In this document: one piece after another, positions 1-21,987 of the stretch
Layout of the letters: every line of letters starts with the position of its first letter
Numbering within the stretch: position 1 is the stretch's first letter
Origin: a virus
Length of the DNA: 25,428 bases
Reading direction: 5' to 3' (one strand)
Virus record (IMG/VR): IMGVR_UViG_3300032236_000886
Location: 1 to 25,428 of that record
Position numbers and translations under genes: made by a program
Notes under the pieces: model-generated
Databases searched by the model: none
What the model saw: the letters and a program-made list of their open reading frames with translations, nothing else
Told to the model about the DNA's origin: nothing

Positions 1-303
1 GGACGCCTTACCCATCTCATCGAGCATGAGGATGACAGGCACGTTGTCATGTACACCCAGCGACTCGTTGTAATAGAACTGCGTGGTCTTGCTCTCATGG
101 TCAACAGCAGGGATGCGGAAGTCACCCTCGTGCATCACGGTCATGTCCATGTAGACCTTGCGGTGGTTGGGTAGGCGCTTGGCAACGGTGTCGATCAACG
201 ACGATTTGCCTGAGCCGATGTGGCCTTGCACGATGGCGGTCACGTCATGGCCGGTTGCGCAGATGAAGTCGGCTGTCTCTTGGTAGTTCATTGAGGATTT
301 CAT
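1..303 (-). CDS. AAA+ ATPase, CobS/MoxR-like (partial, 3' end beyond left edge)
   Basis: This is the N-terminal 101 residues of a leftward gene that runs off the window. I translated it by hand from the ATG at 303. A Walker A motif, GHIGSGKSS, lies at about residues 27-35, and a Walker B motif, VILMLDEMGK, at about residues 90-99. The short N-terminus and this Walker spacing fit the MoxR/CobS branch of AAA+ ATPases, which remodel partner proteins, often together with a VWA-domain partner. No clear Shine-Dalgarno is visible (GAAAGA is the best candidate), so translation may be coupled to the gene ending at 323, only 19 bp upstream. The DUF3150-like neighbour supports the CobS-like reading, because these families are adjacent in some plasmids, ICEs and phages (recalled, not searched). 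A VWA protein would be expected just outside the window. The substrate is unknown. Confidence 0.75.
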   Translation of the reverse strand, partial: MKSSMNYQETADFICATGHDVTAIVQGHIGSGKSSLIDTVAKRLPNHRKVYMDMTVMHEGDFRIPAVDHESKTTQFYYNESLGVHDNVPVILMLDEMGKAS

Positions 304-322
304 TTTGATCTTTCAGTTGGGG

Positions 323-1189
323 TTAGATTTCAAGGTTGAATTTTTCTGTCAGGTTGTCCATCTTTACTTTCACAGACTCACGTAGCTCGGGTGATTTGCG
401 CAGCGAGTCGATGTCCACGTCCCTCAAAGATAGTTCAAGGGCGCGGCGTGCTTCTTCTAAGTCGGGGTCGTCCAATACGTTAAGCGATTTCAATGTAGAA
501 CACAAATCAAGTGCGTTCTCAAGCATGGAGACGAACAACTTCTGCGACTTGCCGTCTTCCTTGGGCAGCATCTTGTCGCGGATGTGTGTCACCTGCTCAT
601 ACAGGCGATCCCACGGTTCCTTCATGGCATCTTGCATGCGGCTGTTCATCGTGCCCTCAAACTTCTGCTTGAGTTGTGCGGCAGCTTCAGCAGGGATGTC
701 AACACGAAAGTCACCCGACTCAGGCACCGGTGTGAAGTGGTACCGCAGTGCGAACTTCTTGTGCATCTCGCTGGCCTGCGGGTACTCCTTGGAGTCGAAC
801 AGTTTGCCCAGCTTGAACGCTTGCGCTGCCACCTTGGTGGAGAAGTTGTTGACGAACGTGTTGACCAGTGCATCGAACTTCTGCTCATGCTGCGCCAGCT
901 CATGGCTGATGTCAAAGAACGCTTTGGTGGGTACCAATCGTGTGCCTGTGTCAGACCACGGCAGCGTCACGCTGTACAACCAATTGCGCACCTGCCCAGC
1001 GTATGAGTTGATGGCTGCAAGGTCAGCGTCTTCAGCAAACAGATTCTTGTGCACCGATGTGGCTGATGCCCGCGCACCCTTGGCCGTGCTGACTTCGTTG
1101 GCCGTAGCCTTGTCTTGCTTGCGCCCTGTGTAGACAGAGATGTTGAGGTCGAGCAGCATGGCGCTCGTTGAAAGTGATTTGTGTTTCAT
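323..1189 (-). CDS. DUF3150-like protein, partner of the AAA+ ATPase
   Basis: This is a 288-residue soluble protein with no signal peptide or membrane segment. The N-terminal stretch LLDLNISVYTGRKQD, followed by a Lys/Ala-rich segment and by RNWLYSVTLPWSDTG at about residues 68-82, resembles what I remember of DUF3150 proteins, which accompany CobS-like ATPases. The rest is helical and charged (about residues 170-285). Function is unknown; a role in recombination or DNA metabolism is only inferred from neighbours in other elements. The start is uncertain. The ATG at 1189 lies 3 bp from a regulatory palindrome and has no ribosome site, while the in-frame ATG at 1159 leaves 33 bp to the palindrome, closer to the 27-29 bp seen at three other genes. 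Confidence 0.65.
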   Translation of the reverse strand: MKHKSLSTSAMLLDLNISVYTGRKQDKATANEVSTAKGARASATSVHKNLFAEDADLAAINSYAGQVRNWLYSVTLPWSDTGTRLVPTKAFFDISHELAQHEQKFDALVNTFVNNFSTKVAAQAFKLGKLFDSKEYPQASEMHKKFALRYHFTPVPESGDFRVDIPAEAAAQLKQKFEGTMNSRMQDAMKEPWDRLYEQVTHIRDKMLPKEDGKSQKLFVSMLENALDLCSTLKSLNVLDDPDLEEARRALELSLRDVDIDSLRKSPELRESVKVKMDNLTEKFNLEI

Positions 1190-1192
1190 GAT

Positions 1193-1212
1193 CGTAATAC
1201 CTGTATGACGTT
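1193..1212. promoter_or_regulatory. Palindrome site 1 (CGTCATAC-NN-GTATGACG family)
   Basis: CGTAATACCTGTATGACGTT has one substitution in the left arm relative to the consensus. It sits between the stop codon of the 144-aa gene, which begins in the flanking TT, and the start of the DUF3150-like gene. It is one of eight related sites, all in the leftward arm. Confidence 0.75.
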
Positions 1213-1645
1213 AAGCGGTACGCAACAGTTCAATGCGCTGGGTTTTCTTGTTGGTGTGTACCTTGTGGTTGCCCGCCCCAAAGTTTGTAGACGCAAGGCT
1301 TGATACGCTGCTTTGCAGCTCACGTAATTCAACACCTGCTGCCATCATTGGTTCGTCAAGTTGAAACTCAAGCACGTCACCGATCTGCATGTCCTTGAGT
1401 GTTGGCATGATGGCTTTTGTCATGTATCCAAGTGGCATCTTTGACGGGGTGCGGGTGCGTTTTTTCTCGGTGGGAATTGCTGCCAGTTTCATGTTGCCCC
1501 GCTCATACATCATGCCGTCAGGCAGGCGGATGATGTACTCGGCCTTGGCCGCATTGAGGGTGCGCAGTGCTTGATCGACAGCGCGAAGTACGACTTCAGG
1601 TACAGATGTTTGTTGCATGGTAGGTAAGTTAAGTTGTTTAGACAT
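1211..1645 (-). CDS. Hypothetical phage protein (144 aa)
   Basis: I do not recognise this family. The protein has a helical N-terminus (VVLRAVDQALRTLNAAKAEY, about residues 19-38), a short strand-rich segment with LPDGMMYERGNMKLA, then a basic patch (EKKRTRTPSKMPLG) and a segment ending DVLEFQL. It is soluble. The ATG at 1645 has a good ribosome site (GGAGA, 8 nt upstream). A sigma70-like promoter candidate lies just upstream at 1683-1711. The stop codon abuts palindrome site 1. The basic centre could suggest nucleic-acid binding, but that is a guess. Confidence 0.7.
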   Translation of the reverse strand: MSKQLNLPTMQQTSVPEVVLRAVDQALRTLNAAKAEYIIRLPDGMMYERGNMKLAAIPTEKKRTRTPSKMPLGYMTKAIMPTLKDMQIGDVLEFQLDEPMMAAGVELRELQSSVSSLASTNFGAGNHKVHTNKKTQRIELLRTA

Positions 1646-1682
1646 GAAAGTTTCTCCAGTGGTTTAACGATTTACAGAATGA

Positions 1683-1711
1683 AGTTTACACGATTAACTT
1701 GAGGGTGTCAA
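1683..1711 (-). promoter_or_regulatory. Sigma70-like promoter candidate, leftward
   Basis: On the minus strand a perfect -35 TTGACA (1706-1711) is separated by 17 bp from TAAACT (1683-1688, 4 of 6 matches). Transcription would start near 1676, about 30 nt before the ATG at 1645. The -35 lies inside the 3' end of the upstream gene. An AACTTGA/TCAAGTT inverted repeat with a 5-nt loop overlaps it and could be an operator. Confidence 0.45.
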
Positions 1712-2062
1712 GTTTTTTATGTTTGTGATCGGGTCAACAGCCCGCAGCTGCTCGGCCAAGCGTTTGCACTCGGCCTTGACGTATGCCATGTTGCGGTACA
1801 CATCGTCACTATGTGCCAAATCTCTCCCGGGTACCAAATCGCCTGCGTGTGCGCAGTCGAATCCGATTCGAACGCCATCGTTGAAAGTCACGCCGCCATG
1901 CACTTCAAGAGGTACGTCATACCCAGTGTTTGCATATGGGTGGTGTCTGCCCACCAGCACATACCCACACAGCGTGCCCATCATCTTGTGGCGTTTGATC
2001 TCGCACCAATAGCCATGCTCAATGAACGTGGCTTCATTAGGTTCAGTTTCCCATTCATTCAT
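1694..2062 (-). CDS. Hypothetical phage protein (122 aa)
   Basis: This soluble protein has conserved-looking aromatic and His/Cys positions: HGYWCEIKRH, GTLCGYVLVGRHHP, HGGVTFNDG and FDCAHAGDLVPG. I recall similar unnamed proteins in phage and bacterial genomes, with the WCEI...LCGYV...HGG...GFDCAH..D pattern, but no function is known to me. Its start overlaps the stop of the upstream gene by ATGA (2059-2062), which implies translational coupling. The C-terminus overlaps the promoter candidate for the next gene. Confidence 0.75.
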   Translation of the reverse strand: MNEWETEPNEATFIEHGYWCEIKRHKMMGTLCGYVLVGRHHPYANTGYDVPLEVHGGVTFNDGVRIGFDCAHAGDLVPGRDLAHSDDVYRNMAYVKAECKRLAEQLRAVDPITNIKNLTPSS

Positions 2063-2241
2063 CGATCCATCCTCCCCGCTTCATAGTCCGCAACAACACG
2101 GTCGCGGATTTCTTTGTTTGTGATCAGCTGGCGTGTGACGTACTTGGCCACCCCAAGTTCATGGTGGTACTTGAACGCCAGCCACGTTGCGACTACGTCC
2201 CAGATTAGAAATATAAATTCTGATGTTGTGAATTCAATCAT
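2059..2241 (-). CDS. Small single-pass membrane protein (60 aa)
   Basis: I chose the ATG at 2241 over an upstream in-frame alternative because AAAGGAAA lies at proper spacing in front of it. The 60-residue product has one hydrophobic segment (FIFLIWDVVATWLAFKY, about residues 9-25) and a charged C-terminal tail (NKEIRDRVVADYEAGRMDR). This suggests an N-out or N-in single-pass inner-membrane protein with a cytoplasmic helix. Function is unknown. It sits in an early-type operon far from the lysis genes, so a holin role is not favoured. It overlaps the next gene by 4 nt. Confidence 0.65.
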   Translation of the reverse strand: MIEFTTSEFIFLIWDVVATWLAFKYHHELGVAKYVTRQLITNKEIRDRVVADYEAGRMDR

Positions 2242-2251
2242 GTTGTTTCCT

Positions 2252-3325
2252 TTATTGTGGAATGTGTAGTTTGTCAAAGATAGTGCAGAGCACGGTGTCT
2301 GCGTCATACGTTTTAATTTGTTCTTGCATGAGCTTGATGAACTTCTTGGTCAGCTTGCGTTTGTTCATGAACTTCAGTGCAAACTTCGGGTCTTCTGGGT
2401 ACACCGACTCAGCGGCCAGCATGAGCAGGTCTTCAGGCATACCGAACTCTGCATCCACCAGCGCGTCTTCAACCACCGTGCGTGCCCATTGCTCTTCGCT
2501 GTCATCGCCGTAGGTTTGCCACCAGTTCCCTTTGTTGTACATATCCTCGACCTCGCCTGCCTTGCGTTTGGTAGGCAGCTTGTCCCACTGCACACTGAGC
2601 ACGGCCTCACTCAATGCGGTGAAGTGGAGGATGTCAAGGGACTCTTGGGCGCTGTGCTCAAGGGCATACCCGATGCTGATGTTGGTGCATTCGGCGATGT
2701 GGTCAACGAACTCTGCTGTGTCGGTATACACGCCGGTGTCGTCAGGCAGATACATCATGCGCTCATCCATGTTGAGCGAGTCGGCTACCGCTTGTGCGAA
2801 CGCATCGCTACAGCAGCGGCCATACCCTTGGTGTGTGATCACGCTGTCAATGCCACGTCTGTCGAACGCAATGGCTCGGTCAAACTGCATGAGCAGGTCG
2901 CCATGTTCCTTGGCCAGATGCTTGGCACCTATGCCGCCGCACTCCTCGCCTTGGGTGAACACGTAGTAGCCGGGCACATCGTTGTGTATCAGGTGCATGA
3001 GCATGGCACAGCCCGCACCGTCATCGGCACCCAGTGGTGCATCCTTGGCAGACCATAGCTTGTCCGTCTTGGTGAACTTGTTGGGGCCGGTGTCACGATG
3101 CACCGTGTCCACGTGGGCAACGAACAGCGTGCGTGCGTCTGGGTCATTGCGTCTGTTGTCAACGTGCAGGTTGTCGCAATCATCGAGGTGTGCATACTCT
3201 TGCAGATGCACGGGCAGCTCGTCCCACATCCACTGAGTGAAGTAGTCCACAGCAGGGGTAGCATGCGGGCGCTTGATAGACAAGGCACGGCACAGAGTTG
3301 TGTAAAGGATTGAATGTTTGTTCAT
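2252..3325 (-). CDS. M20/M28-type zinc metallopeptidase-like protein
   Basis: This 357-residue protein has the full metal-ligand pattern of co-catalytic zinc peptidases of clan MH: HVDTVH (H71, D73), GADDGAG (D101/D102), GEE (E127/E128), AFDRRG (D155) and a late His in ALEHSAQE (H224). All expected ligands and the catalytic Glu are present, so it is probably active as an aminopeptidase, carboxypeptidase or amidohydrolase. The substrate cannot be read from sequence. There is no signal peptide, so it should act in the cytoplasm. After about residue 240 comes a roughly 115-residue extension rich in charged residues that is not part of the usual core. The ATG at 3325 is preferred (GGAAA upstream). 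Palindrome site 2 lies 27 bp upstream. Confidence 0.8.
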   Translation of the reverse strand: MNKHSILYTTLCRALSIKRPHATPAVDYFTQWMWDELPVHLQEYAHLDDCDNLHVDNRRNDPDARTLFVAHVDTVHRDTGPNKFTKTDKLWSAKDAPLGADDGAGCAMLMHLIHNDVPGYYVFTQGEECGGIGAKHLAKEHGDLLMQFDRAIAFDRRGIDSVITHQGYGRCCSDAFAQAVADSLNMDERMMYLPDDTGVYTDTAEFVDHIAECTNISIGYALEHSAQESLDILHFTALSEAVLSVQWDKLPTKRKAGEVEDMYNKGNWWQTYGDDSEEQWARTVVEDALVDAEFGMPEDLLMLAAESVYPEDPKFALKFMNKRKLTKKFIKLMQEQIKTYDADTVLCTIFDKLHIPQ

Positions 3326-3352
3326 AGTGTTTCCAGTTGCGGTTGTGTTAAT

Positions 3353-3371
3353 CGTCATACGTTGTCTGACG
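3353..3371. promoter_or_regulatory. Palindrome site 2
   Basis: CGTCATACGTTGTCTGACG has a 3-nt centre instead of 2 and one arm substitution, which it shares with site 3. It lies 27 bp upstream of the peptidase start at 3325 and overlaps the stop codon of the upstream Cys-rich gene. Confidence 0.7.
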
Positions 3372-4764
3372 TTTCGTCAGTGTCTTCATCTTGCTCGGGT
3401 GCGTTGTCGGGGTGGTACGTGTTGCCATCGATCTCTACGTAATCCACGTCATCGCTGTACCATTCGCCGGACTCACAGCATTGCCAGCAGTCTTCCTTGA
3501 GTCCATACTCACCGCTCTCAAGGCACACCACACGCTTGTCATCAGTCAGGTAGTTGTCACCGTCGATCTCGCATGTGTCACACTCAGGCACCACGTTGCC
3601 GTCAACATCCCACACCATGCTGTTGTCACCGAGGTAGTTTTCGTGGTAGTAGGTGTCGTCACTGTCACAGTACACAGCGTTATCGCTTGAGAAATGGTAC
3701 GCCCGCCCACCACGGCCACGCCCGTAAACATAGCTCTCGGCGCAGCACTCGCACACCATCTCATCTTCGTGATAGCCCACCCACAAGCCATCGTCTTCGT
3801 TGAAGCGATCGCCACATCCACAGAGCTGACCTTGCTGATCATCAGCGTCACCATCTTGGCGGCAGCATTCGTACGCACCGTCACTATCATCGATGGTAAG
3901 TACCTGCACCCCATTGTCATAGGTCACGTTCACGTACTGGTTGTAGCCATCGATGTACGGTGCAACAAAGCCACAGTTGTTGCTGGTTTCTATGTGGGCC
4001 ATGCGTGTGCCAATGTCCCAGCCTGAGCGATGCTCATACCCCTGCTCTTTGAGCCATGCTTGCATGCGTTCGCATGTGCGGGTACCGCCCTCATGCTTGG
4101 CATAGGTGCGCACGAAATACTTCTGACCCTCATCATCGGTGTTGCACAGCGCACGGCTCACGGTTTCGCCACCCTCTTCAAGCACAGCGAGGTGCCAGCC
4201 CAAGCGCGGGTCATAGGCACGGTACGGGTGCTCATCAAGACCATGACCAGACTTCTGCATGCACGAGTACGGGCCGCGTTGTATGTGGTAGATCATCTCC
4301 GCGATGGTGTGTACGAACTTGCACCCGCTTGTTGAGTGCAGCGCAACGATGTCACGGATGGCGTGATCGGGCATGCTCATGAAGTGAGCCCGCAGGTATT
4401 TGCCCAGCGATGTCACGGTCTGTATGTCCCCCTCACCCTTGCGCTCGGTCTGGGTGTAGGCCACACGGTTCCTATCTGTGGTGGACTGATGTGGCCACTC
4501 AAGCAAGAGTTGTTGCCAGTCGGTTGGGCGCGACATGCGCATGGCTTTGCGTACCGCAGGATGCAGTTGGTAGCGTTCTTGCTCACGCATGTGCCATGCA
4601 CGTGCCTCACGTGTAGGTGTTGGCATACCTAGAAACATGCGCTGACGGACGGGGCACCATTGCAAGGGGCGCTCTAAGTTTGTGGTGCGCACGATACGTG
4701 CGGCTGCTGTAAAGATGTTCTCCATATCATCGGCGTTGTAGCCTGCTTCGTGATAGGTAGTCAT
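3355..4764 (-). CDS. Large Cys-rich acidic protein with zinc-finger-like repeats
   Basis: The product is 469 residues. The ATG at 4764 is chosen because AGAGAGG lies upstream; an upstream ATG at 4803 is merely the ATGTATGAC-like arm of palindrome site 3. The N-terminal 200 residues are helical and basic-to-neutral. From about residue 290 the protein becomes very acidic and holds repeated CxxC or CC pairs (YECCRQ, CGCGDRF, CECCAESY, CDTCEIDG, CWQCCESGEWY). Each is followed by Tyr/Asp-rich strands such as DNYLTDD and GNTYHPD, suggesting tandem treble-clef or LIM-like zinc modules. The tail is EDTDETSDNV. Function is unknown. Such acidic zinc modules could bind a host protein or act as a DNA mimic, but this is inference only. 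Confidence 0.75.
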   Translation of the reverse strand: MTTYHEAGYNADDMENIFTAAARIVRTTNLERPLQWCPVRQRMFLGMPTPTREARAWHMREQERYQLHPAVRKAMRMSRPTDWQQLLLEWPHQSTTDRNRVAYTQTERKGEGDIQTVTSLGKYLRAHFMSMPDHAIRDIVALHSTSGCKFVHTIAEMIYHIQRGPYSCMQKSGHGLDEHPYRAYDPRLGWHLAVLEEGGETVSRALCNTDDEGQKYFVRTYAKHEGGTRTCERMQAWLKEQGYEHRSGWDIGTRMAHIETSNNCGFVAPYIDGYNQYVNVTYDNGVQVLTIDDSDGAYECCRQDGDADDQQGQLCGCGDRFNEDDGLWVGYHEDEMVCECCAESYVYGRGRGGRAYHFSSDNAVYCDSDDTYYHENYLGDNSMVWDVDGNVVPECDTCEIDGDNYLTDDKRVVCLESGEYGLKEDCWQCCESGEWYSDDVDYVEIDGNTYHPDNAPEQDEDTDETSDNV

Positions 4765-4793
4765 GGGGGACCCTCTCTGTTTCGATTGGTGAT

Positions 4794-4813
4794 CGTCATA
4801 CATGTCTGACGTT
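4794..4813. promoter_or_regulatory. Palindrome site 3
   Basis: CGTCATACATGTCTGACGTT has one arm substitution. It lies in the gap between the 88-aa gene and the Cys-rich gene, 29 bp upstream of the ATG at 4764. Confidence 0.75.
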
Positions 4814-4816
4814 TGG

Positions 4817-5083
4817 TTACTTGCTCAAAAGATAGAAGGCATATGCCTTTGGCATGGCCGCGTCCATTGCGGCCAGCACGCTGGTTGGCACCGTAGTGCG
4901 TGGGAATTCTTTGGTGAAGTTGGCTCTCAAGATCAGCTCATGGCTGTGCTCAATGTACCCATCGGGAGTGCAGTCAACGTACCGGCGCCACACACCGGTA
5001 CCCGCTGGGTTTTGCACGGTCAGGTTGAATCCCTGCGTGTGCGTATACACCATGACGTTGCCATCGATGAGTTTCTTTTTCAT
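4817..5083 (-). CDS. Hypothetical protein (88 aa)
   Basis: I do not recognise this small soluble protein. It has alternating hydrophobic/polar strands (GNVMVYTHTQGFNLTVQNP, about residues 8-26; RRYVDCTPDGYIEHSHEL, about residues 33-50) and an Ala-rich C-terminal helix. The ribosome site is weak, but the start overlaps the stop of the upstream zinc-finger gene (ATGA, 5080-5083), so it is likely translated by coupling. It belongs to the leftward operon that starts at 5471. Confidence 0.65.
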   Translation of the reverse strand: MKKKLIDGNVMVYTHTQGFNLTVQNPAGTGVWRRYVDCTPDGYIEHSHELILRANFTKEFPRTTVPTSVLAAMDAAMPKAYAFYLLSK

Positions 5084-5289
5084 GTTGTCCGTTTCGGGTT
5101 GAGTTGTTTAAGCACGTCCATGTCAGTTACTAACATGTAATTGCTTTTGTTCATAGGCACTATTGTATGCTGTTGTTTGCGTGCTGTCAATTCGCCGCAT
5201 GTCATGCATGTGTTGTACCCAAGTTTGGCCCGGTTCGGTGGGATGCGCTCGAAGAAACAGCAGGTGCAGATTAGATTGTGGTAGTGCAT
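5080..5289 (-). CDS. Small four-Cys zinc-finger-like protein (69 aa)
   Basis: Two Cys pairs, CTCC (about residues 8-11) and CMTCG (about residues 28-32), flank a 16-residue spacer with FFERIPPNRAKLGY, which looks like a zinc ribbon or treble-clef. The C-terminal half (HTIVPMNKSNYMLVTD) is strand-rich. I recall similar unnamed proteins in phages. GAGGAG lies just upstream of the ATG at 5289, a strong ribosome site. It overlaps the upstream gene by 19 nt and the downstream gene by 4 nt, so the three are co-translated. A role in binding nucleic acid or RNA polymerase is possible but not shown. Confidence 0.7.
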   Translation of the reverse strand: MHYHNLICTCCFFERIPPNRAKLGYNTCMTCGELTARKQQHTIVPMNKSNYMLVTDMDVLKQLNPKRTT

Positions 5290-5471
5290 GTCGGCTCCTC
5301 TTTGTATGCGTAGCAGCGCTCACCTGTGTTGCGCAGGGTTTGGTCGATCTGTTTGTTTTCTTTGTCGTTGAGTGTCGGGCGCATCAAGGTTATGCCCTTC
5401 ACCTTGCAATCAAGCCCAACCCAATAGCCACCATTGTGTGTGGCGTGTTGGCAGTTTCTACATGACTTCAT
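5271..5471 (-). CDS. Small Cys-rich protein (66 aa), first gene of the leftward operon
   Basis: MKSCRNCQHA begins a protein with a CxxC pair near the N-terminus and two more Cys (DCKVKG, ERCYAY) that could complete a zinc site. The ATG at 5471 has GGGGGA upstream. It is the first open frame after the 460-nt leader that starts at the promoter at 5940-5968, and palindrome site 4 lies 29 bp upstream of the start. Function is unknown; a small zinc-binding regulator is plausible. Confidence 0.65.
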   Translation of the reverse strand: MKSCRNCQHATHNGGYWVGLDCKVKGITLMRPTLNDKENKQIDQTLRNTGERCYAYKEEPTCTTTI

Positions 5472-5500
5472 ATCTATCCCCCTTCAGTTGCGAATGGTTG

Positions 5501-5520
5501 CGTCATACATGTATGACGTT
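5501..5520. promoter_or_regulatory. Palindrome site 4 (perfect arms)
   Basis: CGTCATACATGTATGACGTT has a perfect 18-bp dyad. It lies 29 bp upstream of the ATG at 5471. Confidence 0.8.
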
Positions 5521-5846
5521 GGTGTGGTACACCGCAATGGGCTCTCATAAAACCCATCACGTTGCACACTCGTCGTATCCCACTTGCGTGGAATCACTCG
5601 TTACTCGTGTTTGTTGTCCGCTGTGCTGCGAGGCAGCATGCGCTCGGTTTGCGTTTTGTTTGTATGCTTGTATTGCTTTTGCTCACGTGCTGTTACCACA
5701 CGTGAGAGCCGACTGACTACGGCACGCCTTTTCACCGAACATTGATGGGAAACTGATTTGTTGTATTGTTGTGGCCCATGTGCCAGCTTCTGCCTTGTGG
5801 CAGCGGCGGTTTGATTTACTGATTGCTAGTCAGTTGTGTCTGATAT

Positions 5847-5859
5847 GTTTTTAAAGAAC
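5847..5859 (-). promoter_or_regulatory. boxA-like antitermination element
   Basis: The minus strand reads GTTCTTTAAAAAC. It resembles the boxA element of bacterial rRNA leaders (GCTCTTTAAAAAT-like in betaproteobacteria), which binds NusB/S10. It lies about 75 nt downstream of the predicted start of a long untranslated leader, the expected place for a processive antitermination site. It is a short motif, so a chance match is possible. Confidence 0.4.
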
Positions 5860-5880
5860 TAAGCCATGTCTATGTGTAAT

Positions 5881-5900
5881 CGTCATACGTGTATGACGTT
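5881..5900. promoter_or_regulatory. Palindrome site 5 (perfect arms)
   Basis: CGTCATACGTGTATGACGTT has perfect 8-bp arms around a GT centre. It lies about 33-53 bp downstream of the predicted transcription start of the leader. Confidence 0.8.
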
Positions 5901-5939
5901 GGCCTACAAATGGAAGCGATATCCCACTCGATTAGACAT

Positions 5940-5968
5940 AGTATAACACAACTAAATGGCCTTGTCAA
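5940..5968 (-). promoter_or_regulatory. Strong sigma70-like promoter for the leftward operon
   Basis: On the minus strand TTGACA (5963-5968, perfect) is followed by a 17-bp spacer and TATACT (5940-5945, 5 of 6). Transcription would start near 5933 and read the leader and the gene cluster from 5471 leftward. It begins just after the stop codon of the 176-aa gene, so that gene may also read through into it. Confidence 0.75.
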
Positions 5969-5994
5969 GTGGAAACATGATCAAACAGTAGTAT

Positions 5995-6525
5995 CTAGCG
6001 GGTGCGCCAGATCAGCAGGGGAGATGCAGGGCCATCGATGCGTTCGGTCTTGAAGCGTTTGTCGCTTGGCTTGTTGTTGTAGTAGCTGCACAGCGCGGCC
6101 ATGTTGCGGGCCAACACATCAGGCACGATAAACTTCTGATGAATCGCCAGTTCCCTGAGCTTGGCCTTGGCCAGCGCGGGGTCATCGATGCGCTCACCTG
6201 CACGCACGGCGTCACGTTTCTCGAACACACGGTTGCGGTTGATGGCCGCGATTTCTTCTAGCTCTTGGGTGCGCACGGTTTGCCCGTGCAGGTGGGTGCC
6301 TGCTTCGATGGCGGCTTGCAGGGTGTCGTCTGGCAGTGGTTCGTTGAGGTCGATCAGCGAGTCTAGAATGGCTGCAATGTCTGGGCTGATCTTCACGTTG
6401 GGTGTGCGGTACGTCTCGGCGGGTGCCGTGCGGGGGTCTATATTTGCAGGCTCGACTTCGATGCTGCCATCCAGCAGGCCGTTGGCAAATTGTTTCAGGG
6501 ATAGGTCAGGGCGAATCAGAGACAT
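5995..6525 (-). CDS. Hypothetical phage protein (176 aa)
   Basis: I do not recognise this soluble, mostly helical protein. The N-terminus (MSLIRPDLSLKQFANGLLDG) precedes a Pro-rich linker. A helical centre (PDIAAILDSLIDLNEPLPDD) follows, and then a segment rich in Arg/Glu (QELEEIAAINRNRVFEKRDAV, about residues 84-104). The C-terminal KRFKTERIDGPASPLL is basic. The start at 6525 has AAAGGAAA 7 nt upstream. An extended -10 promoter (6558-6566) lies about 30 nt before it. No terminator follows it. Helical charged character and early position would suit a DNA-replication or regulatory accessory protein, but this is not shown. Confidence 0.65.
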   Translation of the reverse strand: MSLIRPDLSLKQFANGLLDGSIEVEPANIDPRTAPAETYRTPNVKISPDIAAILDSLIDLNEPLPDDTLQAAIEAGTHLHGQTVRTQELEEIAAINRNRVFEKRDAVRAGERIDDPALAKAKLRELAIHQKFIVPDVLARNMAALCSYYNNKPSDKRFKTERIDGPASPLLIWRTR

Positions 6526-6557
6526 TGTAAAGTTTCCTTTGTAAAGGTGGAATCAAG

Positions 6558-6566
6558 ATTGTATCA
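6558..6566 (-). promoter_or_regulatory. Extended -10 promoter candidate
   Basis: The minus strand reads TGATACAAT: TG, one base, then TACAAT (5 of 6 to TATAAT). It lies about 30 nt upstream of the ATG at 6525. There is no good -35, which extended -10 promoters can tolerate. Confidence 0.45.
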
Positions 6567-6681
6567 TGGGGTGCGTTCTGCGTGTACCAGAATTTAGGGG
6601 TCTGTACTTGATTTTTGCAAGGATAGTAAAGTACAAACGTACGGATAGTAGACGGGCGAAAGGTGGGTAAAGGTGGACAAA

Positions 6682-6699
6682 CGTCATACCGGTATGACA
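6682..6699. promoter_or_regulatory. Palindrome site 6
   Basis: CGTCATACCGGTATGACA has a CG centre and one end mismatch. It is about 115 bp upstream of the extended -10 promoter, at the edge of the AT-rich region. It is the only site lacking the flanking GTT. Confidence 0.75.
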
Positions 6700-6900
6700 T
6701 GTTCAGTGCTGTTTAGTAAATTGGATGGCGATGTACCATCGAAACTTGGTAATCAAAATATATAAAATACAAAGCACAGTCTCAGGCAAACACAGACCCC
6801 GAAAAACCAAAAACCACCATCACATAGTTAAGTCAGACCAATTAGAAAAAAGAACCTGTAAAAAACAAGTCGTTCTGGAACATCTACTCTAATATAATAA

Positions 6901-6928
6901 TATATATATATATATACTTACTTACTTA
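6901..6928. repeat. (TA)8 tract followed by (CTTA)3
   Basis: Sixteen bases of perfect TA repeat (6901-6916), preceded by AATATAATAA, run into three CTTA units (6917-6928). This is a low-melting tract in an otherwise GC-moderate genome. Confidence 0.9.
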
Positions 6929-7129
6929 GACTCTCTTGCTGGTTAGAACATTGCTACTTGGGCCAAACGTGATTATCCATGATGTTCCGCTACTTGATTG
7001 GAACTTTGCATATTTACTTGGTACGTGCGAAGTACACGCTTTGCGATCAGAACGCATAGGTGCTTAGGTGCATAGTTACTTCGGCCACCAGTTCCCTTGA
7101 CATTGTTAAGATATTTGACAAAACAAAAA

Positions 7130-7156
7130 GCCTCATACCCGTGCAAGGTATGAGGC
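7130..7156 (-). terminator. Rho-independent terminator, leftward (second of tandem pair)
   Basis: On the minus strand a perfect 10-bp stem GCCTCATACC/GGTATGAGGC with a 7-nt loop is followed by TTTTTGTTTT. It lies downstream of the first terminator of the 171-aa gene and would catch read-through. Confidence 0.8.
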
Positions 7157-7177
7157 GAAAGTGAACAGACGCAAAAA

Positions 7178-7195
7178 AGCCCGCCGAAGCGGGCT
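7178..7195 (-). terminator. Rho-independent terminator, leftward (first of tandem pair)
   Basis: On the minus strand AGCCCGC/GCGGGCT pairs as a 7-bp GC-rich stem with a TTCG loop, and is followed by TTTTT. It lies 22 bp after the stop codon of the 171-aa gene. Confidence 0.85.
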
Positions 7196-7199
7196 GAAT

Positions 7200-7219
7200 T
7201 GTCATACATGTATGACGTT
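7200..7219. promoter_or_regulatory. Palindrome site 7
   Basis: TGTCATACATGTATGACGTT has perfect inner arms and one end mismatch. It sits between the stop codon of the 171-aa gene, which it abuts, and the first terminator. It is therefore at a gene's 3' end rather than its 5' end. Confidence 0.8.
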
Positions 7220-7733
7220 ATTCGCTGAGGTCTTCGCCTGCCTCTTTGAGCACCTCTGCGATCGCATCGATCAAAGGCGTGCCATCGGCCATCAGGGTTT
7301 CGATCATGATCAGCACCTCCTCTGCTGTGTCTGACATCTTCCATACATTCAGCAAAGCCGCGATCATCTTTTCATAATCGGATTTTGCTTCGCCCGCCTT
7401 TTTGGTGTCGCCTTTGCCCTTGGCTTTGGCGCGTGCGGCGTTGAACACGAATGGCACATCATTTTCCAATGCAAAGCGGACATCAGACACATAGTTCTTG
7501 GCCGTGGCTTTGGACACGCCCTCGGCGACAAATGCATCATGAAACGTGCGGGCGTTGGTGTCTTTGCGCATATCACCCAATGAAGTCACGCCGAGACCGC
7601 GCAGGGTCTTGATCTTCTCGTTAACGATGGCCAAGCCATCCGCCGCGCCCTTGATGGCTTTGGCGGTGTCTTTGATGGCGGTGAATACTGCTGAGGTATC
7701 AGCATGAACGATGGCGAGGTTAGCTTTTGACAT
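7218..7733 (-). CDS. Hypothetical early protein (171 aa) behind a near-consensus promoter
   Basis: I do not recognise the family. The product is helical. Residues about 45-90 (DMRKDTNARTFHDAF, GVSKATAKNYVSDVRFALEND) look like a small helical DNA-binding module, similar in feel to the core-binding (SAM-like) domain of tyrosine recombinases, but no catalytic domain follows. Then come a Lys/Ala-rich linker (ARAKAKGKGDTKKAGEAK) and an acidic C-terminal helical region. AAGGGA lies about 8 nt upstream of the ATG. It is a single-gene unit: a strong promoter upstream, two terminators downstream, and palindrome sites at both ends. That isolated control suggests an abundant early protein, possibly the regulator of the palindromes; this is inference. 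Confidence 0.65.
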   Translation of the reverse strand: MSKANLAIVHADTSAVFTAIKDTAKAIKGAADGLAIVNEKIKTLRGLGVTSLGDMRKDTNARTFHDAFVAEGVSKATAKNYVSDVRFALENDVPFVFNAARAKAKGKGDTKKAGEAKSDYEKMIAALLNVWKMSDTAEEVLIMIETLMADGTPLIDAIAEVLKEAGEDLSE

Positions 7734-7798
7734 GGTGAATTCCCTTTCAAGGAATATCGGCGTATCTGTTGCGATACCTTTGTTGAACCGATGACTGA

Positions 7799-7827
7799 AT
7801 TATGGTCCCTTTTGATCACTTTGTCAA
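7799..7827 (-). promoter_or_regulatory. Near-consensus sigma70 promoter, leftward
   Basis: On the minus strand TTGACA (7822-7827, perfect) is followed by a 17-bp spacer and CATAAT (7799-7804, 5 of 6). The start would be near 7792, about 59 nt before the ATG at 7733. Palindrome site 8 begins 11 bp upstream of the -35. Confidence 0.8.
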
Positions 7828-7838
7828 CTGTTTTGTAT

Positions 7839-7858
7839 CGTCATACGCGTATGACGTT
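7839..7858. promoter_or_regulatory. Palindrome site 8 (perfect arms)
   Basis: CGTCATACGCGTATGACGTT has a perfect 18-bp dyad with a GC centre. It is centred about 56 bp upstream of the predicted leftward start, a position where activators often bind. Confidence 0.8.
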
Positions 7859-8118: not shown

Positions 8119-8724
8119 ATGCTGACCATAATCCCAGAGCTGTGTGTCCCGCTGCCCGAAGACGAGGCGGCTACGCTGACCTTGCACGAAAAGGCCGCTG
8201 CACTGTTCAAGACGGTGGAGTTCCTACAAACATTTGGCATCGAAGTCGAGCCCACGGGTGAGGATGAAGTGCGGGCCCGCGCTGCGGTGGCCGGGACGAT
8301 TGGTGCCAACCCTGAAGCTGCCGATCCCCCTGCGGGCGCCGCGATGGCCGTGGCCAACACTGCTGGGTCAGTCGTACATCTGAAAAACATACTTAGCGAA
8401 TACGACCAGATCGTGGTCAAGTCGGCCGTGCAGATTCGCACCTATGTCACCAACAAGCTGATCGAAGAGTCCAACAACCGGGACCCAAAGATTCGCATGC
8501 GGGCATTGGAATTGCTAGGCAAGATCGGCGACGTGGGTCTGTTCGTTGAGCGCACCGAGGTGACCGTGAAGCACAAGACCACGATCGAATTGCAGACCTC
8601 CATCAAGGAGCGCATCTCCCGCTTGCTGCAAGTCAAGAGCAAGGCCGAAGAAATCCAAGAGCTGCCGGTCAAGGCGGTGAGTCTGCGTGAGTCCGCAGAC
8701 CGGGTGTTGGCCGACGATGAGTAA
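8119..8724 (+). CDS. terS: Terminase small subunit (probable)
   Basis: The 201-residue protein lies directly upstream of the large terminase and overlaps it by 8 nt, the standard terS position. Its first half is acidic and Ala-rich. The second half is helical, with SEYDQIVVKSAVQIRTYVTN, NRDPKIRMRALELLGKIGDVG and a C-terminal coiled segment (TSIKERISRLLQVKSKAEEI). The alignment-free resemblance is to phage small terminases that bind the packaging site and feed DNA to TerL. An in-frame TTG at 8083 exists, but the ATG at 8119 is preferred. No ribosome site precedes it; see the leaderless-promoter note. It is the first gene of the late operon. Confidence 0.7.
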   Translation: MLTIIPELCVPLPEDEAATLTLHEKAAALFKTVEFLQTFGIEVEPTGEDEVRARAAVAGTIGANPEAADPPAGAAMAVANTAGSVVHLKNILSEYDQIVVKSAVQIRTYVTNKLIEESNNRDPKIRMRALELLGKIGDVGLFVERTEVTVKHKTTIELQTSIKERISRLLQVKSKAEEIQELPVKAVSLRESADRVLADDE

Positions 8725-10261
8725 CGCCCCCGATCATGACGAGGTGGTGCTGGCCGCGCTGCTCAGCCAAGACCTCTCTGGCCTCAGTGAGGATGAGTTG
8801 GTGGCGTTGGATGAAGAAGTCGGGGAAGTTGAGCGGAGGATTTTGGCCCGCGCATGCCGCGAGGACCTGCTGACGTTCTGTCAACGGATGAACCCGGACT
8901 ACAAGATTGGGCCCCACCACCGGAAATTGGCCCAGCTGCTAGAAGATATGGCGTTTGACCGCAAAGATCGCGTTGCGGTCTCGGTTCCACCACGTCACGG
9001 CAAGTCATTTCTCGTGTCAGTCTATTTTCCAGCATGGTTTTTAGGTAATTTCCCGAACAAAAAAGTGCTGATGGTGTCCCACACAACCGATCTGGCTGTG
9101 GATTTTGGCCGAAAAGTGCGAAATTTGGTAGACCAACCGACATATAAAGACATTTTTCCCACTGTAACGCTAGCTGCCGACTCAAAAAGTGCCGGAAGAT
9201 GGAACACCAACACAGGTGGAGAGTATTTTGCGACCGGTGTGGGCTCCGCGCTGGCCGGTCGGGGTGCGGATTTGCTCCTGATTGACGACCCGCACAACGA
9301 ACAAGACATCGTGAATGGCAATTTCGAGGCTTTTCAAAAGGCCTATGAGTGGTTCACGTTCGGTGCCCGCACGCGACTGATGCCCGGCGGGCGGGTGGCC
9401 ATTGTGCATACCCGCTGGCACCCCAACGACTTGATTGGCAACATGGCCAAGGACATGGCCCGCAATGGTGAGGCTGACGTCTACGAGTTTTTCGAGTTTC
9501 CGGCCATCTTCAACGAAAACACGCCTGAGGAGAGGGCGCTGTGGCCAGATTTCTACGATTTGAAGGCGCTGCACCGCACCCGGGCGTCCATGCCAGCCTT
9601 CCAGTGGAACGCGCAGTACCAGCAAAACCCGACGGCCGAAGAGGGCGCCGTGGTCAAACGCGAGTGGTGGAAGCTGTGGGAGCGCGAAGACCCGCCCACC
9701 TGCGACTACATCATCATGACGCTGGATGCTGCGGCAGAAATCAAAAACCGCAACGACTTTACCGCCTTGCTCACGTGGGGCGTGTTCTCTGACGAGAGAC
9801 TGACAAATGATGCCCCCCACATCATCTTGCTCAACGCCATCAACATCCGCGTGGAGTTCCCCGAGCTTAAAGACCTGTGCATGCGCGAGTACAAAGAGTG
9901 GGAGCCGGACGCATTCATCGTGGAGAAGAAGTCGGCCGGGACGCAACTGTTCCAAGAGTTCAGGCGCATGGGAATTCCCGTGGCTGAGTTCACCCCGCAC
10001 CGGGGCACGGGCGACAAATTGGCCCGTCTAAATGCTGTGGCGGATATTTTCAGATCGGGCATGGTCTGGTATCCTGCGGGTAGGCGCTGGGCGGAAGCCG
10101 TGGTCGAGCAGGTGGCCGCGTTCCCAGCCTCAGACAACGACGACATGGTTGACTGCACATCGATGGCGCTGGCACGCTTCAGGAATGGCGGTTTCATCCG
10201 GTTGGACAGTGATTACGCTGATGAGCCGAATGGGCGCATCCGCCGGGCAGCATACTATTAA
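8717..10261 (+). CDS. terL: Terminase large subunit
   Basis: This is the ATP-driven DNA-packaging motor with a headful or cos nuclease, 514 residues. The ATG at 8717 is chosen because it overlaps the terS stop (ATGAGTAA). The Walker A motif is PPRHGKS at residues 91-97 and Walker B is LLLIDDPH at about 186-193. The C-terminal RNase H-like nuclease shows its acidic residues in MTLDAAAEIKNRNDFTALL (about 333-351), DAFIVEKKSAGTQLFQE (about 396-412) and DNDDMVDCTSMAL (about 473-485). The length is normal for the family. It binds the portal, encoded next with an AAGGA ribosome site after an 8-bp gap. Confidence 0.95.
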   Translation: MSNAPDHDEVVLAALLSQDLSGLSEDELVALDEEVGEVERRILARACREDLLTFCQRMNPDYKIGPHHRKLAQLLEDMAFDRKDRVAVSVPPRHGKSFLVSVYFPAWFLGNFPNKKVLMVSHTTDLAVDFGRKVRNLVDQPTYKDIFPTVTLAADSKSAGRWNTNTGGEYFATGVGSALAGRGADLLLIDDPHNEQDIVNGNFEAFQKAYEWFTFGARTRLMPGGRVAIVHTRWHPNDLIGNMAKDMARNGEADVYEFFEFPAIFNENTPEERALWPDFYDLKALHRTRASMPAFQWNAQYQQNPTAEEGAVVKREWWKLWEREDPPTCDYIIMTLDAAAEIKNRNDFTALLTWGVFSDERLTNDAPHIILLNAINIRVEFPELKDLCMREYKEWEPDAFIVEKKSAGTQLFQEFRRMGIPVAEFTPHRGTGDKLARLNAVADIFRSGMVWYPAGRRWAEAVVEQVAAFPASDNDDMVDCTSMALARFRNGGFIRLDSDYADEPNGRIRRAAYY

Positions 10262-12804: not shown

Positions 12805-12992
12805 CAAAAGAACTTGAGATATTACGCAAGAAATTGCGCGAACGCATGAACGACGTTGCCGACTCGGTGGCGTCGGGTAGATGCGCTGATTTTGGTGAAT
12901 ACCAAAAACTCTGCGGGGTGATCGAGGGCTTGGCCTACGCAGAACGTGACTTACTCGACCTCGCAGAAACTATGAAAGAAACCGATGAGTGA
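12801..12992 (+). CDS. Small helical hypothetical protein with TTG start (63 aa)
   Basis: The TTG start at 12801 overlaps the portal stop by 4 nt. AAGGAAAATGA just upstream gives a ribosome site, and the first ATG inside would lose 15 residues. The protein is one long charged helix (KELEILRKKLRERMNDVADS) followed by FGEYQKLCGVIEGLAYAERDLLDLAE, like small helical accessory proteins seen next to phage portals. I recall similar unnamed phage proteins. Function is unknown. It ends 8 nt inside the GroES-like gene. Confidence 0.65.
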   Translation: MTKELEILRKKLRERMNDVADSVASGRCADFGEYQKLCGVIEGLAYAERDLLDLAETMKETDE

Positions 12993-13410
12993 AACCCTCA
13001 CGCTAGAACCCGGGATTTTCGCAATCCCACAAGTGACCGAAGCCAAAATTGAAGACATCCCACTGGAGGAACGAGCAAAACAACTGCCCGAACCCAAAGG
13101 CTGGATGCTGTTGGCCGCAGTCATTGAAGTACCTGACACCTTTGAAGGTACCAGCATCGTGCGTGCTGAAGTCACACGTAAATCAGACGAGTTGACCTCG
13201 CCTGTGCTCTACGTTATGGCCTTGGGCCCCGAGTGCTACAAAGATGAAACCAAGTTCCCAAGCGGCCCCCGCTGCAAGGAAGGCGACTTCATCCTCACAC
13301 GCCCCTACGCAGGGACACGCGTGAAAATTCACGGTAAAGAGTTCCGCTTGCTCAATGATGACCAAGTTGAAGCGACCGTGCAAGACCCACGTGGCATCAG
13401 CCGCGCATAA
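12985..13410 (+). CDS. GroES/Cpn10-like co-chaperonin (probable)
   Basis: The protein has 141 residues. The second half follows the Cpn10 pattern: LYVMALGPECY (about 75-85), CKEGDFILTRPYAGTRVKIH (about 97-116, matching the GDxVLFxKYAGTEVK pattern) and KEFRLLNDDQVEATV (about 118-132, matching EYLxLREDDILAVV). Residues 50-72 (VPDTFEGTSIVRAEVTRKSD) are where the GroEL-binding mobile loop would sit. Phage co-chaperonins such as T4 gp31 help the host GroEL fold capsid protein. The 40-residue N-terminal extension is unusual. It lies between portal and scaffold, the right place for a capsid-folding helper. The identification rests on motif reading only. Confidence 0.6.
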   Translation: MSETLTLEPGIFAIPQVTEAKIEDIPLEERAKQLPEPKGWMLLAAVIEVPDTFEGTSIVRAEVTRKSDELTSPVLYVMALGPECYKDETKFPSGPRCKEGDFILTRPYAGTRVKIHGKEFRLLNDDQVEATVQDPRGISRA

Positions 13411-13419
13411 GGAGAAAAC

Positions 13420-14442
13420 ATGTCCAAATTCAAGGGCGATACGTTCAAATTCCCCGATGAGGTCACCGTCAAACCCAAAGAAGGTAGCGACGATCTCAAC
13501 AAGGTGGAGTACGAAATTGAGGGCGAAGAGGCCCTCAAATCTGAGGTAAAGGTTGACAAGTCAAGTAAAGCTGACTCTGAGATCGAAATCGTCGATGACG
13601 AGCCTTTGATCGACAAGGCGACGCCCAACGTGGCAGACCCTGACGATGAAGAGTTCGAGCAATACTCGGCCGGTGTCAAAAAGCGCATTGAGAAACTCAC
13701 GTTTGCTCGACGTGAGGAAGAGCGTGCCAAACAGGCCGCAATGCGTGAAAAGAACGAGTTTGAACGCATCGCCAAAGCGATGGCGGATGACAACCGCAAA
13801 CTTCAGGAATACGTCCAAAGCGGTGAGAAAGCGTACATGGAGAAGGTGCAAGCCCTCGCCCAAGTAGAGCTGGACAACGCCAAGGCAAAGATGAAGCAAG
13901 CGTATGACGCAGGCGATTCCGGTGCATTAGCCAATGCACAGGAAGAAATGATGCTGGCCGGTATGAAAGTACAGCAAGCACAAAATTTCAAGCCTGCACC
14001 TGTACAACAGCAAAATTATGATGTACAGTCCGCCCAACAGGCTCCCGCACCCGCGCAGCCCAACCTTGATCCGAAGCTGGATAGCTGGCTGAAGAAAAAT
14101 ACTTGGTTCGGCGACGCAAGCAAAAAAGCAATGTCAGCTTATGCGATGGGCCTGCATCAGGAACTTGAAGACAAATACGGGGCCGACTTCCCCCGCACTG
14201 ATGAGTACTACACTCAAATCGACGCCGAGATGCGTCGCGTCTTCCCCGGTGAGTTCGGCCCGCCCGAATCCGACACCCGGGAACCCCCCAAAAGCAAACC
14301 CGCAACAGTTGTTGCGCCATCAAATCGTGTGACGTCTGCGAAGAAAATTCGTTTGACTCAAACGCAAGTAGCGATCGCCAAACGACTTGGTGTCCCGCTT
14401 GAAGAATACGCTAAACATGTAGCAGCAATGGAGAAACAGTAA
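13420..14442 (+). CDS. Head scaffolding-like protein
   Basis: The 340-residue protein is acidic, helical and Lys/Glu/Gln-rich, with a disordered N-terminal 90 residues and a coiled-coil at about 85-190 (RIEKLTFARREEERAKQAAM ... QALAQVELDNAKAKMKQAYD). A Gln/Pro/Ala linker (APVQQQNYDVQSAQQAPAPA) is followed by a folded domain (LDSWLKKNTWFGDASKKAMS) and a helical C-terminus (QVAIAKRLGVPLEEYAKHV). This is the general design of phage scaffolds, which bind the capsid protein by a C-terminal helix. AAGGAG lies upstream. Its position between portal and major capsid protein supports the call. Confidence 0.75.
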   Translation: MSKFKGDTFKFPDEVTVKPKEGSDDLNKVEYEIEGEEALKSEVKVDKSSKADSEIEIVDDEPLIDKATPNVADPDDEEFEQYSAGVKKRIEKLTFARREEERAKQAAMREKNEFERIAKAMADDNRKLQEYVQSGEKAYMEKVQALAQVELDNAKAKMKQAYDAGDSGALANAQEEMMLAGMKVQQAQNFKPAPVQQQNYDVQSAQQAPAPAQPNLDPKLDSWLKKNTWFGDASKKAMSAYAMGLHQELEDKYGADFPRTDEYYTQIDAEMRRVFPGEFGPPESDTREPPKSKPATVVAPSNRVTSAKKIRLTQTQVAIAKRLGVPLEEYAKHVAAMEKQ

Positions 14443-14891
14443 TGTCCAAAATCGACACAACCGCACGAGCACAATCGTCCCGCAACGCTGGAAAGCGCGT
14501 GGGCTGGCGCCCTGCCTCTGTTCTTCCTGATCCTGATCCACGTCCCGGCATCGGGCATCGTTGGATTGCTACTGCTGTTTTGGGCGAATCTCAACACGTC
14601 AACGTGTCGAAAAAACGACGCGAAGGCTGGGAACCTGTCCGTGCCGAAGACTATCCTGAACTCGAACTTCAGGGTAACCCCAACGGTAACGTAGAAGTCG
14701 GCGGGCTGATGCTATGCGCGTGCCCACTTGAGACCTTGCAGGAACGCGATGCTTACTTCGCGGAACAAGCACAGGCTCAAACTGACTCTGTGGACTCGAA
14801 ATTCTTGGGTATTTCCGACCCACGGATGCCGGTGTTCTCTGAGAAAAAATCGGGTGTATCTCGCGGTGCATCCTTTGGTTCTGGTAATTAA
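14442..14891 (+). CDS. Head-region hypothetical protein (149 aa)
   Basis: It overlaps the scaffold stop by 1 nt (TAATG). The N-terminus is basic (KIDTTARAQSSRNAGKRVGWRPA); the centre has a predicted mixed alpha/beta part with VNVSKKRREGWEPVRAEDYP and GNVEVGGLMLCACPLETLQE; the tail is Ser/Gly-rich. I do not recognise a named family. Its place between scaffold and capsid genes suggests a minor head or assembly protein. Confidence 0.6.
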   Translation: MSKIDTTARAQSSRNAGKRVGWRPASVLPDPDPRPGIGHRWIATAVLGESQHVNVSKKRREGWEPVRAEDYPELELQGNPNGNVEVGGLMLCACPLETLQERDAYFAEQAQAQTDSVDSKFLGISDPRMPVFSEKKSGVSRGASFGSGN

Positions 14892-21735: not shown

Positions 21736-21987
21736 ATGGCAAAATCACCTGCATGGACTCGCAAAGAAGGCAAGAACCCCAACGGCGGCTTGAACGCCAA
21801 GGGCCGAGCGTCTGCGAAAAAACAAGGGATGAACTTGAAACCTCCCGCCCCGCACCCAAAAACAGAGAAGGACGCCGCCCGTCGCAAATCTTTTTGCGCC
21901 AGAATGAGTGGCATGCCGGGGGATATGAAAGATGAAAAAGGTAAGCCAACACGTAAAGCGTTGTCTTTGAAAGCATGGAACTGCTGA
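21736..21987 (+). CDS. DUF6321-like small basic protein (83 aa)
   Basis: The pattern SPAWTRKEGKNPNGGLNAKG (residues 4-23), then RRKSFCARMSGMPGDM (about 49-64) and a C-terminal Trp-Asn-Cys, matches what I recall of the DUF6321 family found in aquatic phages and plants. It is basic, soluble and without signal peptide. Function is unknown. The ribosome site is weak. Its end overlaps the start of the endonuclease gene by 13 nt. Confidence 0.65.
   Translation: MAKSPAWTRKEGKNPNGGLNAKGRASAKKQGMNLKPPAPHPKTEKDAARRKSFCARMSGMPGDMKDEKGKPTRKALSLKAWNC

Follow-up and report, generated by a model that had tools for sequence, protein, structure and literature searches.

The window analysed here is the whole 25,428-base IMG/VR virus record IMGVR_UViG_3300032236_000886, in which the genes of positions 1-7733 lie on the minus strand (the leftward arm) and face rightward structural genes, among others those for the terminase large subunit (TerL, 8687-10261) and the capsid (15764-16675). 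As listed in Table 1, a palindrome, CGTCATAC-NN-GTATGACG, occurs in eight copies in the window, all inside the leftward arm, and the first leftward gene, hereafter the head gene, is proposed as the gene of its reader.

Table 1. Palindromes and associated features of the leftward arm (nt, nucleotides; ORF, open reading frame)
Feature	Position	Strand	Remarks
Palindrome site 1	1193..1210	.	CGTAATACCTGTATGACG; between gene 1211-1645 and DUF3150-type gene 323-1189
Palindrome site 2	3353..3371	.	3-nt centre; end of ORF 3355-4803, before peptidase-type gene 2252-3358
Palindrome site 3	4794..4811	.	upstream of gene 3355-4803
Palindrome site 4	5501..5518	.	perfect arms; upstream of gene 5271-5471
Palindrome site 5	5881..5898	.	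perfect arms; promoter-like -10 lies 42 nt upstream; boxA-like element 21-23 nt leftward
Palindrome site 6	6682..6699	.	AA flank on other side
Palindrome site 7	7200..7217	.	directly 3' of head-gene stop codon, before terminator
Palindrome site 8	7839..7856	.	perfect arms; 11 nt upstream of head-gene promoter -35
Sigma-70-like promoter	5940..5968	-	TTGACA-17-TATACT; upstream of site 5881
boxA-like sequence	5846..5859	-	GTTCTTTAAAAACA
Head gene, proposed palindrome reader	7218..7733	-	171 amino acids; first leftward gene
Head-gene promoter, sigma-70-like	7799..7827	-	TTGACA-17-CATAAT
Intrinsic-terminator-like hairpin after head gene	7178..7195	-	T run follows
Second intrinsic-terminator-like hairpin	7130..7156	-	stem holds operator arms TCATAC/GTATGA, 9-nt centre

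A scan of the window for CGTCATACNNGTATGACG, tolerating three mismatches, placed seven sites (1193, 4794, 5501, 5881, 6682, 7200 and 7839) within one mismatch of this word, against a mean of 0.02 sites in 100 dinucleotide-preserving shuffles, none of which held seven; the eighth palindrome (3353-3371) differs by a 3-nt centre and a single change in its arms. These results bore out an earlier reading made from the letters of the window (the sequence-only reading), which had listed the eight positions, the perfect arms at 5501, 5881 and 7839, the lack of any copy right of 7858 (none was found there within three mismatches) and a same-side GTT flank at seven of the eight sites. Read leftward, this flank is an AA before the site (GTT on the plus strand), and it lies on the opposite side at the exceptional site, 6682. 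The same reading had also placed every site between genes or over a stop codon. In the gene map the sites fall between genes or at the ends of genes: 3353 overlaps the stop of ORF 3355-4803, and 4794 and 6682 coincide with the starts of two ORFs that were extended mechanically, 3355-4803 and 6506-6700 respectively, the second having no match among the 12 relatives compared.

Relatives were gathered in a first set, for which terminase retrieved 80 loci and the DUF3150-type gene another 9; twelve longer relative records were taken in full or nearly so, giving 13 records with the window, and two more terminase queries together with one from the L191 group enlarged the collection to 158 distinct arms, each 1.3 kb or longer. 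Being picked by terminase similarity, the loci include some close relatives and many fragments. The word of the window was absent from the first-set loci other than the window itself, and this absence prompted a de novo inverted-repeat search, by which many relatives were found to carry one repeated palindrome of their own left of the terminase, the words including TTCCTAC-NN-GTAGGAA, GTTAGTAA, GTTATAC, TGTAGTC, GTTAGGGAA and ATGTCAACA. The exact window word was met in three contigs of viral_contigs with one site each, which were taken as probable chance occurrences.

A single dominant palindrome in about 5-11 copies was present in 11 of the 13 records, the window included, and in those 11, within the extent of the records, no match at up to one mismatch fell outside the arm. 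The exceptions were G016, with degenerate copies only, and G017, which ends before the arm and holds nearly none of it. Palindromes that were identical and equally spaced occurred at least twice in 106 of the 158 distinct arms, and at least three identical copies were present in 56 of the 59 arms over 4 kb, the 52 repeat-less arms being mostly short; block shuffles of the first 115 arms gave two copies in 0.17% of cases and three copies never. Scored by the inner seven bases together with parity, the 87 loci with at least three copies used 47 distinct strings, which single linkage at one mismatch reduced to 18 classes. HTVC023P and DSL-LC04, the nearest named phages by TerL besides 023Pt_psg01, had no palindrome in more than two copies within their initial 40 kb. 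The literature searched, which left out most subscription journals, yielded no account of palindromes like these for phages of this group, and the terms 'palindrom', 'promoter' and 'inverted repeat' did not occur, by term search, in the main text of the article on HTVC023P-type pelagiphages (PMC9599517).

The different words stand at corresponding places. In the clearest single-site comparison, upstream of the DUF3150-type gene, the window reads TAA-CGTCATACAGGTATTACG-ATCATG and locus L095 reads TAA-TCCTACCGGTAGGA-AATCATG, and the relative G002 carries ATCCTACCGGTAGGAA at the place matching site 1. Read by eye, G002 has counterparts beside the corresponding genes for at least five window sites (1193, 3353, 4794, 7200 and 7839), and the boxA-associated site 5881 corresponds to 62935 of G002. 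Relatives that lack the conserved arms, which the sequence-only reading had taken to speak against itself, were literally what was found, yet another palindrome stands at the matching places, which strengthens the regulator reading.

Deviations from each genome's own word, counted over 314 sites of 47 loci, fell in one arm in 107 cases, were paired in 7 and were double without pairing in 2, and the one-arm changes giving G-U numbered 9 on the transcript and 13 on the opposite strand. These counts suggested that pairing as such is not what is kept, and the one-arm deviations with no G-U preference pointed to double-stranded DNA operators rather than RNA hairpins. We thus regard as improbable the explanation that the palindromes are hairpins in the leftward transcripts, serving processing or stability, or nut/boxB-like antitermination beside boxA, and read by a phage RNA-binding protein. 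It would suit the position of the sites in the intergenic gaps of one transcription direction, the site directly after the head-gene stop and before the terminators, and the boxA-like GTTCTTTAA that follows a palindrome after 1-2 nt in seven TTCCTAC phages, 15 nt in L021 and about 21-23 nt in the window, these nine being among the 14 loci with an A2-type head gene (see below). In addition to the deviation counts, it conflicts with the fully self-complementary centres of several words, such as GTTAGGGAATTCCCTAAC and CCTTACAGCTGTAAGG, which recur and leave no room for a loop, with the site before the head promoter, which in 8 of 11 records is not part of the transcript from it, and with the boxA-like motif itself, for which the arms show no excess (44 matches versus 35 for the reversed motif).

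As a separate observation, the boxA-like GTTCTTTAAAAACA of the window sits in a leader behind a strong promoter and, together with the palindrome-adjacent boxA of the TTCCTAC phages, recalls rRNA-type antitermination leaders; leftward of it, about 350 nt up to 5518 hold no long ORF. A search for RNA families returned none at the gathering threshold.

As to the placement of the sites, 19% of 365 sites lay deep in a leftward ORF, compared with 59% of random positions (which covered more than the gaps), and the site start fell between -12 and +30 nt of a stop codon in 22% versus 7%. A strong promoter-like sequence was located within 90 nt upstream of 13.6% and downstream of 11.7% of 359 sites, compared with 3.1% at random. 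Most sites are thus intergenic with no strong promoter nearby, like the stoperators considered below. Taken as a whole, the interpretation offered by the sequence-only reading is partly supported: the comparisons of sequences favour its operators for a dimeric regulator and its undescribed phage regulon, do not favour the RNA hairpin (107 one-arm versus 7 paired deviations), and leave the promoter element to a minority of sites (12-14% versus 3%).

A role of the sites in genome maintenance (partition, packaging or replication) rather than transcription would account for symmetric multi-copy sites, which are typical of such systems. This explanation is very unlikely in our estimate, as the sites, in the records examined, keep to a single transcribed arm, as they avoid coding sequence and lie close to promoters, and as the ParA-type family PF13614 was found in 0 of 17 records.

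The head gene is bracketed by the repeats, a point absent from the sequence-only reading, with site 7839 upstream of its promoter and site 7200 right after its stop codon, followed by the two terminator-like hairpins. A matching palindrome pair around the head gene was found in 30 of 47 loci (pair score of at most 4, our own count with no shuffled control), and profile searches placed a homologue of the head gene in 90 of 115 arms, 76 of them by profile A1 and 14 by profile A2. The structural model of the window head protein is all-helical (predicted local distance difference test score, 74) with an N-domain at about residues 13-100 and a C-module at about 117-171. Five head proteins had no Pfam or PHROG match below an E value of 0.01, and a single head protein as query retrieved no additional homologues by sequence search. 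An integrase hint for the window head protein (phrog_5127, E 0.11) was not used.

Changes of the palindrome word were found to go together with changes in the head protein. Loci L191 and L192 have identical terminase proteins, and their DNA is 98.3% identical over 2720 nt, 98.8% over 493 nt and 82-94% in three other stretches, and all three compared palindromes are switched, those of L191 belonging to the TTGTATACATATGTATACAA type and their L192 counterparts to the TTAGGTAATTACCTAA type (the first pair is tightly in register and the third nearly so, and the second falls inside a diverged stretch). Their head proteins agree in 50 of the C-terminal 57 residues (88%), whereas the N-terminal 140 and 164 residues show no match at the DNA level and weak similarity at the protein level (11 of 500 shuffles score as high), indicating that, as judged from these alignments, the N-terminal part was replaced or strongly diverged. 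Between L222 and L224, whose arms align at 80%, four in-register sites are switched symmetrically from GTTATAA or GTTATAAG type to GTTATGAA, and in the pair 3701/3179 the flanks on both sides are almost unchanged with mirrored changes inside. At the places of the remaining three L222 sites, the new half-sites of L224 (5390, 6383 and 7675) are separated by 12 nt rather than 2, one helical turn more than normal; this +10 spacing is only a hint because it was seen in five cases in 87 loci, three in L224 and two overlapping a normal site. L040 and L039/L204, about 89% identical, carry TGTTAGTCA and TGTTAGGCA, respectively, with head proteins 64% identical in the middle region versus 89% in the C region.

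For the window itself, TerL identity to the nearest three is 86%, and its head C-module matches those of L024 and L025, both TTCCTAC phages, at 53-59%, while its head N-domain is only 22-37% identical to those of the TTCCTAC phages (L064 set apart), compared with 43-93% among themselves. For 16 of 18 other testable genes, including all six testable leftward ones, the window is closer to G001-G003 than G001-G003 are to G004/G009 (the exceptions are 14908-15753 and 21736-21987), and the head N-domain reverses this order (about 34 versus 53%). In a partial Mantel analysis of 46 A1-type loci (operator versus head segments, given TerL and the other segments; 999 permutations), the middle head segment (residues 63-118 of L074) predicted the word (r = 0.27, p = 0.001, the permutation floor), the C segment did so weakly (r = 0.12, p = 0.007), and the N segment did not (r = -0.03, p = 0.70). 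The word thus changes together with part of the head protein, which makes the head protein the likely reader. Sequence comparison shows the repeats, their confinement to the arm, the changed words at matching positions and, in several comparisons, the linked change, and it is from sequence that the pairing of head protein and sites is drawn.

Considering these observations together, the palindromes are probably double-stranded DNA operators of a phage-encoded head protein of no recognised family, which itself is likely to be self-regulating and to down-regulate the leftward arm. In the mechanism we propose, the N-terminal domain of the head protein, probably dimeric, would bind and read the palindrome, and the protein would regulate its own gene, bracketed as it is by sites, and down-regulate or meter the leftward, probably early, genes. 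Control would be exerted at promoters near some sites and by obstructed elongation at the intergenic ones, repression as its sign and blocked elongation being proposed by analogy with Cluster A mycobacteriophages. Reader domain and sites would have been altered jointly in the phage lineages, leaving these with different specificities.

Several observations weigh against this proposal. With respect to the sites, the seven paired deviations exceed the approximately 0.6 expected by chance in our own estimate, centres of 2 and 3 nt occur within one genome, which is unusual for a rigid dimer, and the centre spacing differs by one within some genomes. With respect to the protein, the A1 and A2 families show no detectable homology to each other, and no recognised DNA-binding fold was retrieved with the window and L074 head models (best Foldseek E values 1.2 and 1.8), nor a clear fold match by VIA-align for the window model (best Z 5.6); the weak VIA-align rows, namely the VP35 helical domain, the clamp-loader collar, designed repeats and POU domains, were within the level expected of helical bundles and were set aside. 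The comparison with alternative readers covered genes of the window with sufficient matches in G001-G004, a group to which six leftward genes (1694, 2059, 4817, 5271, 5995 and 6506) do not belong, nor do genes beyond the window. The linkage of word and protein also has exceptions. L048 shares its word, by our own score, with L139 at a head identity of 20% and a TerL identity of 94%; this outlying word is common to L139 and L065, to whose head proteins that of L048 is 20-23% identical, and a second, related palindrome surrounds the L048 head gene. L202 and L039 have similar words with head proteins 26% identical. L064 has TTCCTAC arms with a 1-nt centre and an N-domain 22-29% identical to those of the TTCCTAC group, with which it shares the residues at window head positions 52, 58, 76 and 83, where the window differs. 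Finally, with the head protein taken into account, the operator still follows TerL distance (r = 0.23, p = 0.001), so that shared ancestry explains part of the relationship.

This last dependence would also be expected if a host regulator bound the palindromes and phages of different hosts carried different host operators. Such an explanation seems to us highly improbable, given that the word shifts with one phage protein domain between otherwise close contigs and that the sites bracket the phage head gene.

The position of the upstream palindrome raises a further point. Where an exact TTGACA comes after this palindrome (8 of 11 records), the site stands 2-40 nt upstream of that head-promoter -35, a misfit with simple occlusion and a place where activators bind. 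The head protein might accordingly act on the same DNA operators as an activator or a DNA-bound, Q-like antitermination factor, turning leftward transcription on or through terminators. The site preceding the two terminator-like hairpins behind the head gene and the enrichment of promoter-like sequences on both sides of sites (12-14% versus 3%) are in line with such a role; the variable distance to the -35, where an activator would be expected to keep one helical phase, and the lack of a strong promoter-like sequence within 90 nt of most sites are not, and we consider it unlikely.

A head protein proposed to act on dispersed operators as a repressor invites comparison with known systems. In lambdoid heteroimmunity (lambda, 434, P22), regulator specificity and operators are exchanged together, with few operators in one cassette; the linked exchange of regulator and operator is similar here, but the sites are spread over 5-7 kb and the genes between them still align. 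The temperate Streptomyces phage phiC31 has conserved inverted repeats (CIRs) of about 17 bp that are symmetric and dispersed in the early region, and the present sites are likewise symmetric and in one arm, which is presumably early. In Cluster A mycobacteriophages (L5, Bxb1, Trixie, TipsytheTRex), 20-30 asymmetric 13-bp stoperators oriented with transcription are distributed genome-wide, the phages are temperate, and the repressor is a small (183 residues in L5) monomeric protein with an N-terminal helix-turn-helix (HTH) (PMC6550527, PMC9283540). Both systems have many dispersed near-identical sites in short intergenic gaps, a minority of them at promoters, a small regulator, which is putative here, and a site word that co-varies with it between lineages (with L048 and L064 as exceptions here). 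In contrast, the present sites are palindromic with only a short oriented flank (seven of eight in the window), number about 5-11 in one arm, and go with a protein in which no HTH was recognised. On these sequence features, the palindrome set appears to work like a stoperator system while departing from it in site symmetry. The integrase families PF00589 (tyrosine) and PF00239 (serine) were found in 0 of 15 and 0 of 19 records, respectively, many of which are possibly fragments.

Among cultured phages, Planktothrix phage Pag-Yong1 (OL906435) has a palindrome of its own, GGTTCA-NNN-TGAACC (GGTTCANNNTGAACC), which at up to two mismatches occupies 26 places over 40 kb, 7 inside genes, and two palindromes bracket the 187-residue hypothetical protein UMO76074.1 that heads its leftward genes. 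Unlike in the window, GGTTCANNNTGAACC occurs in both arms; the TerL is 42% identical, and kinship of UMO76074.1 with the head protein is not established. The corresponding locus, L136 (OL906435.1 25000-65014; positions 454-1494 and 13933-14496), has a similar leftward arm with VWA-domain and ATPase genes, and one gene is annotated as an AcrVA2-like anti-CRISPR.

With regard to the remaining genes, the ATPase-type gene 1-303 and the DUF3150 gene 323-1189, both on the minus strand, form an adjacent pair kept in relatives too. Gene 12985-13410 on the plus strand, among the phage-head genes, matched the Cpn10 (GroES) family barely over the cut-off, and HTVC023P and DSL-LC04 likewise have an annotated GroES near the capsid gene. 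The tRNA-Val called by ARAGORN at 19236-19328 (plus strand) lies inside a 432-residue ORF (18736-20034) and is probably a false call. As to the host, the one partial TerL relative in genome_contigs, at 56% identity on a contig of a Berkelbacteria metagenome-assembled genome, was uninformative.

If the proposal is true, a common group of phages, most of them uncultured and with genomes that yielded no integrase, relies on dispersed operators whose recognition differs between lineages, and the palindrome set would be a switchboard re-keyed by each phage lineage; the dispersed-operator design is known mainly from temperate actinobacterial phages. More tentatively, a broad, apparently lytic family of aquatic phages may possess a private-key system, in which a small protein of modular build, founding a new family of DNA-binding proteins, has its reader domain replaced or rapidly diverged while its C-terminal part is kept, and the dispersed symmetric operators are rewritten in concert; this might create mutual-exclusion groups among co-infecting lytic phages as a lytic counterpart of heteroimmunity. 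The finding would furthermore provide a functional route for a protein without a Pfam or PHROG family and, with reader domains and DNA words paired by nature in dozens of cases, sufficient material for a recognition code of an unknown DNA-binding fold, and operator-based exclusion between lytic phages would become testable.

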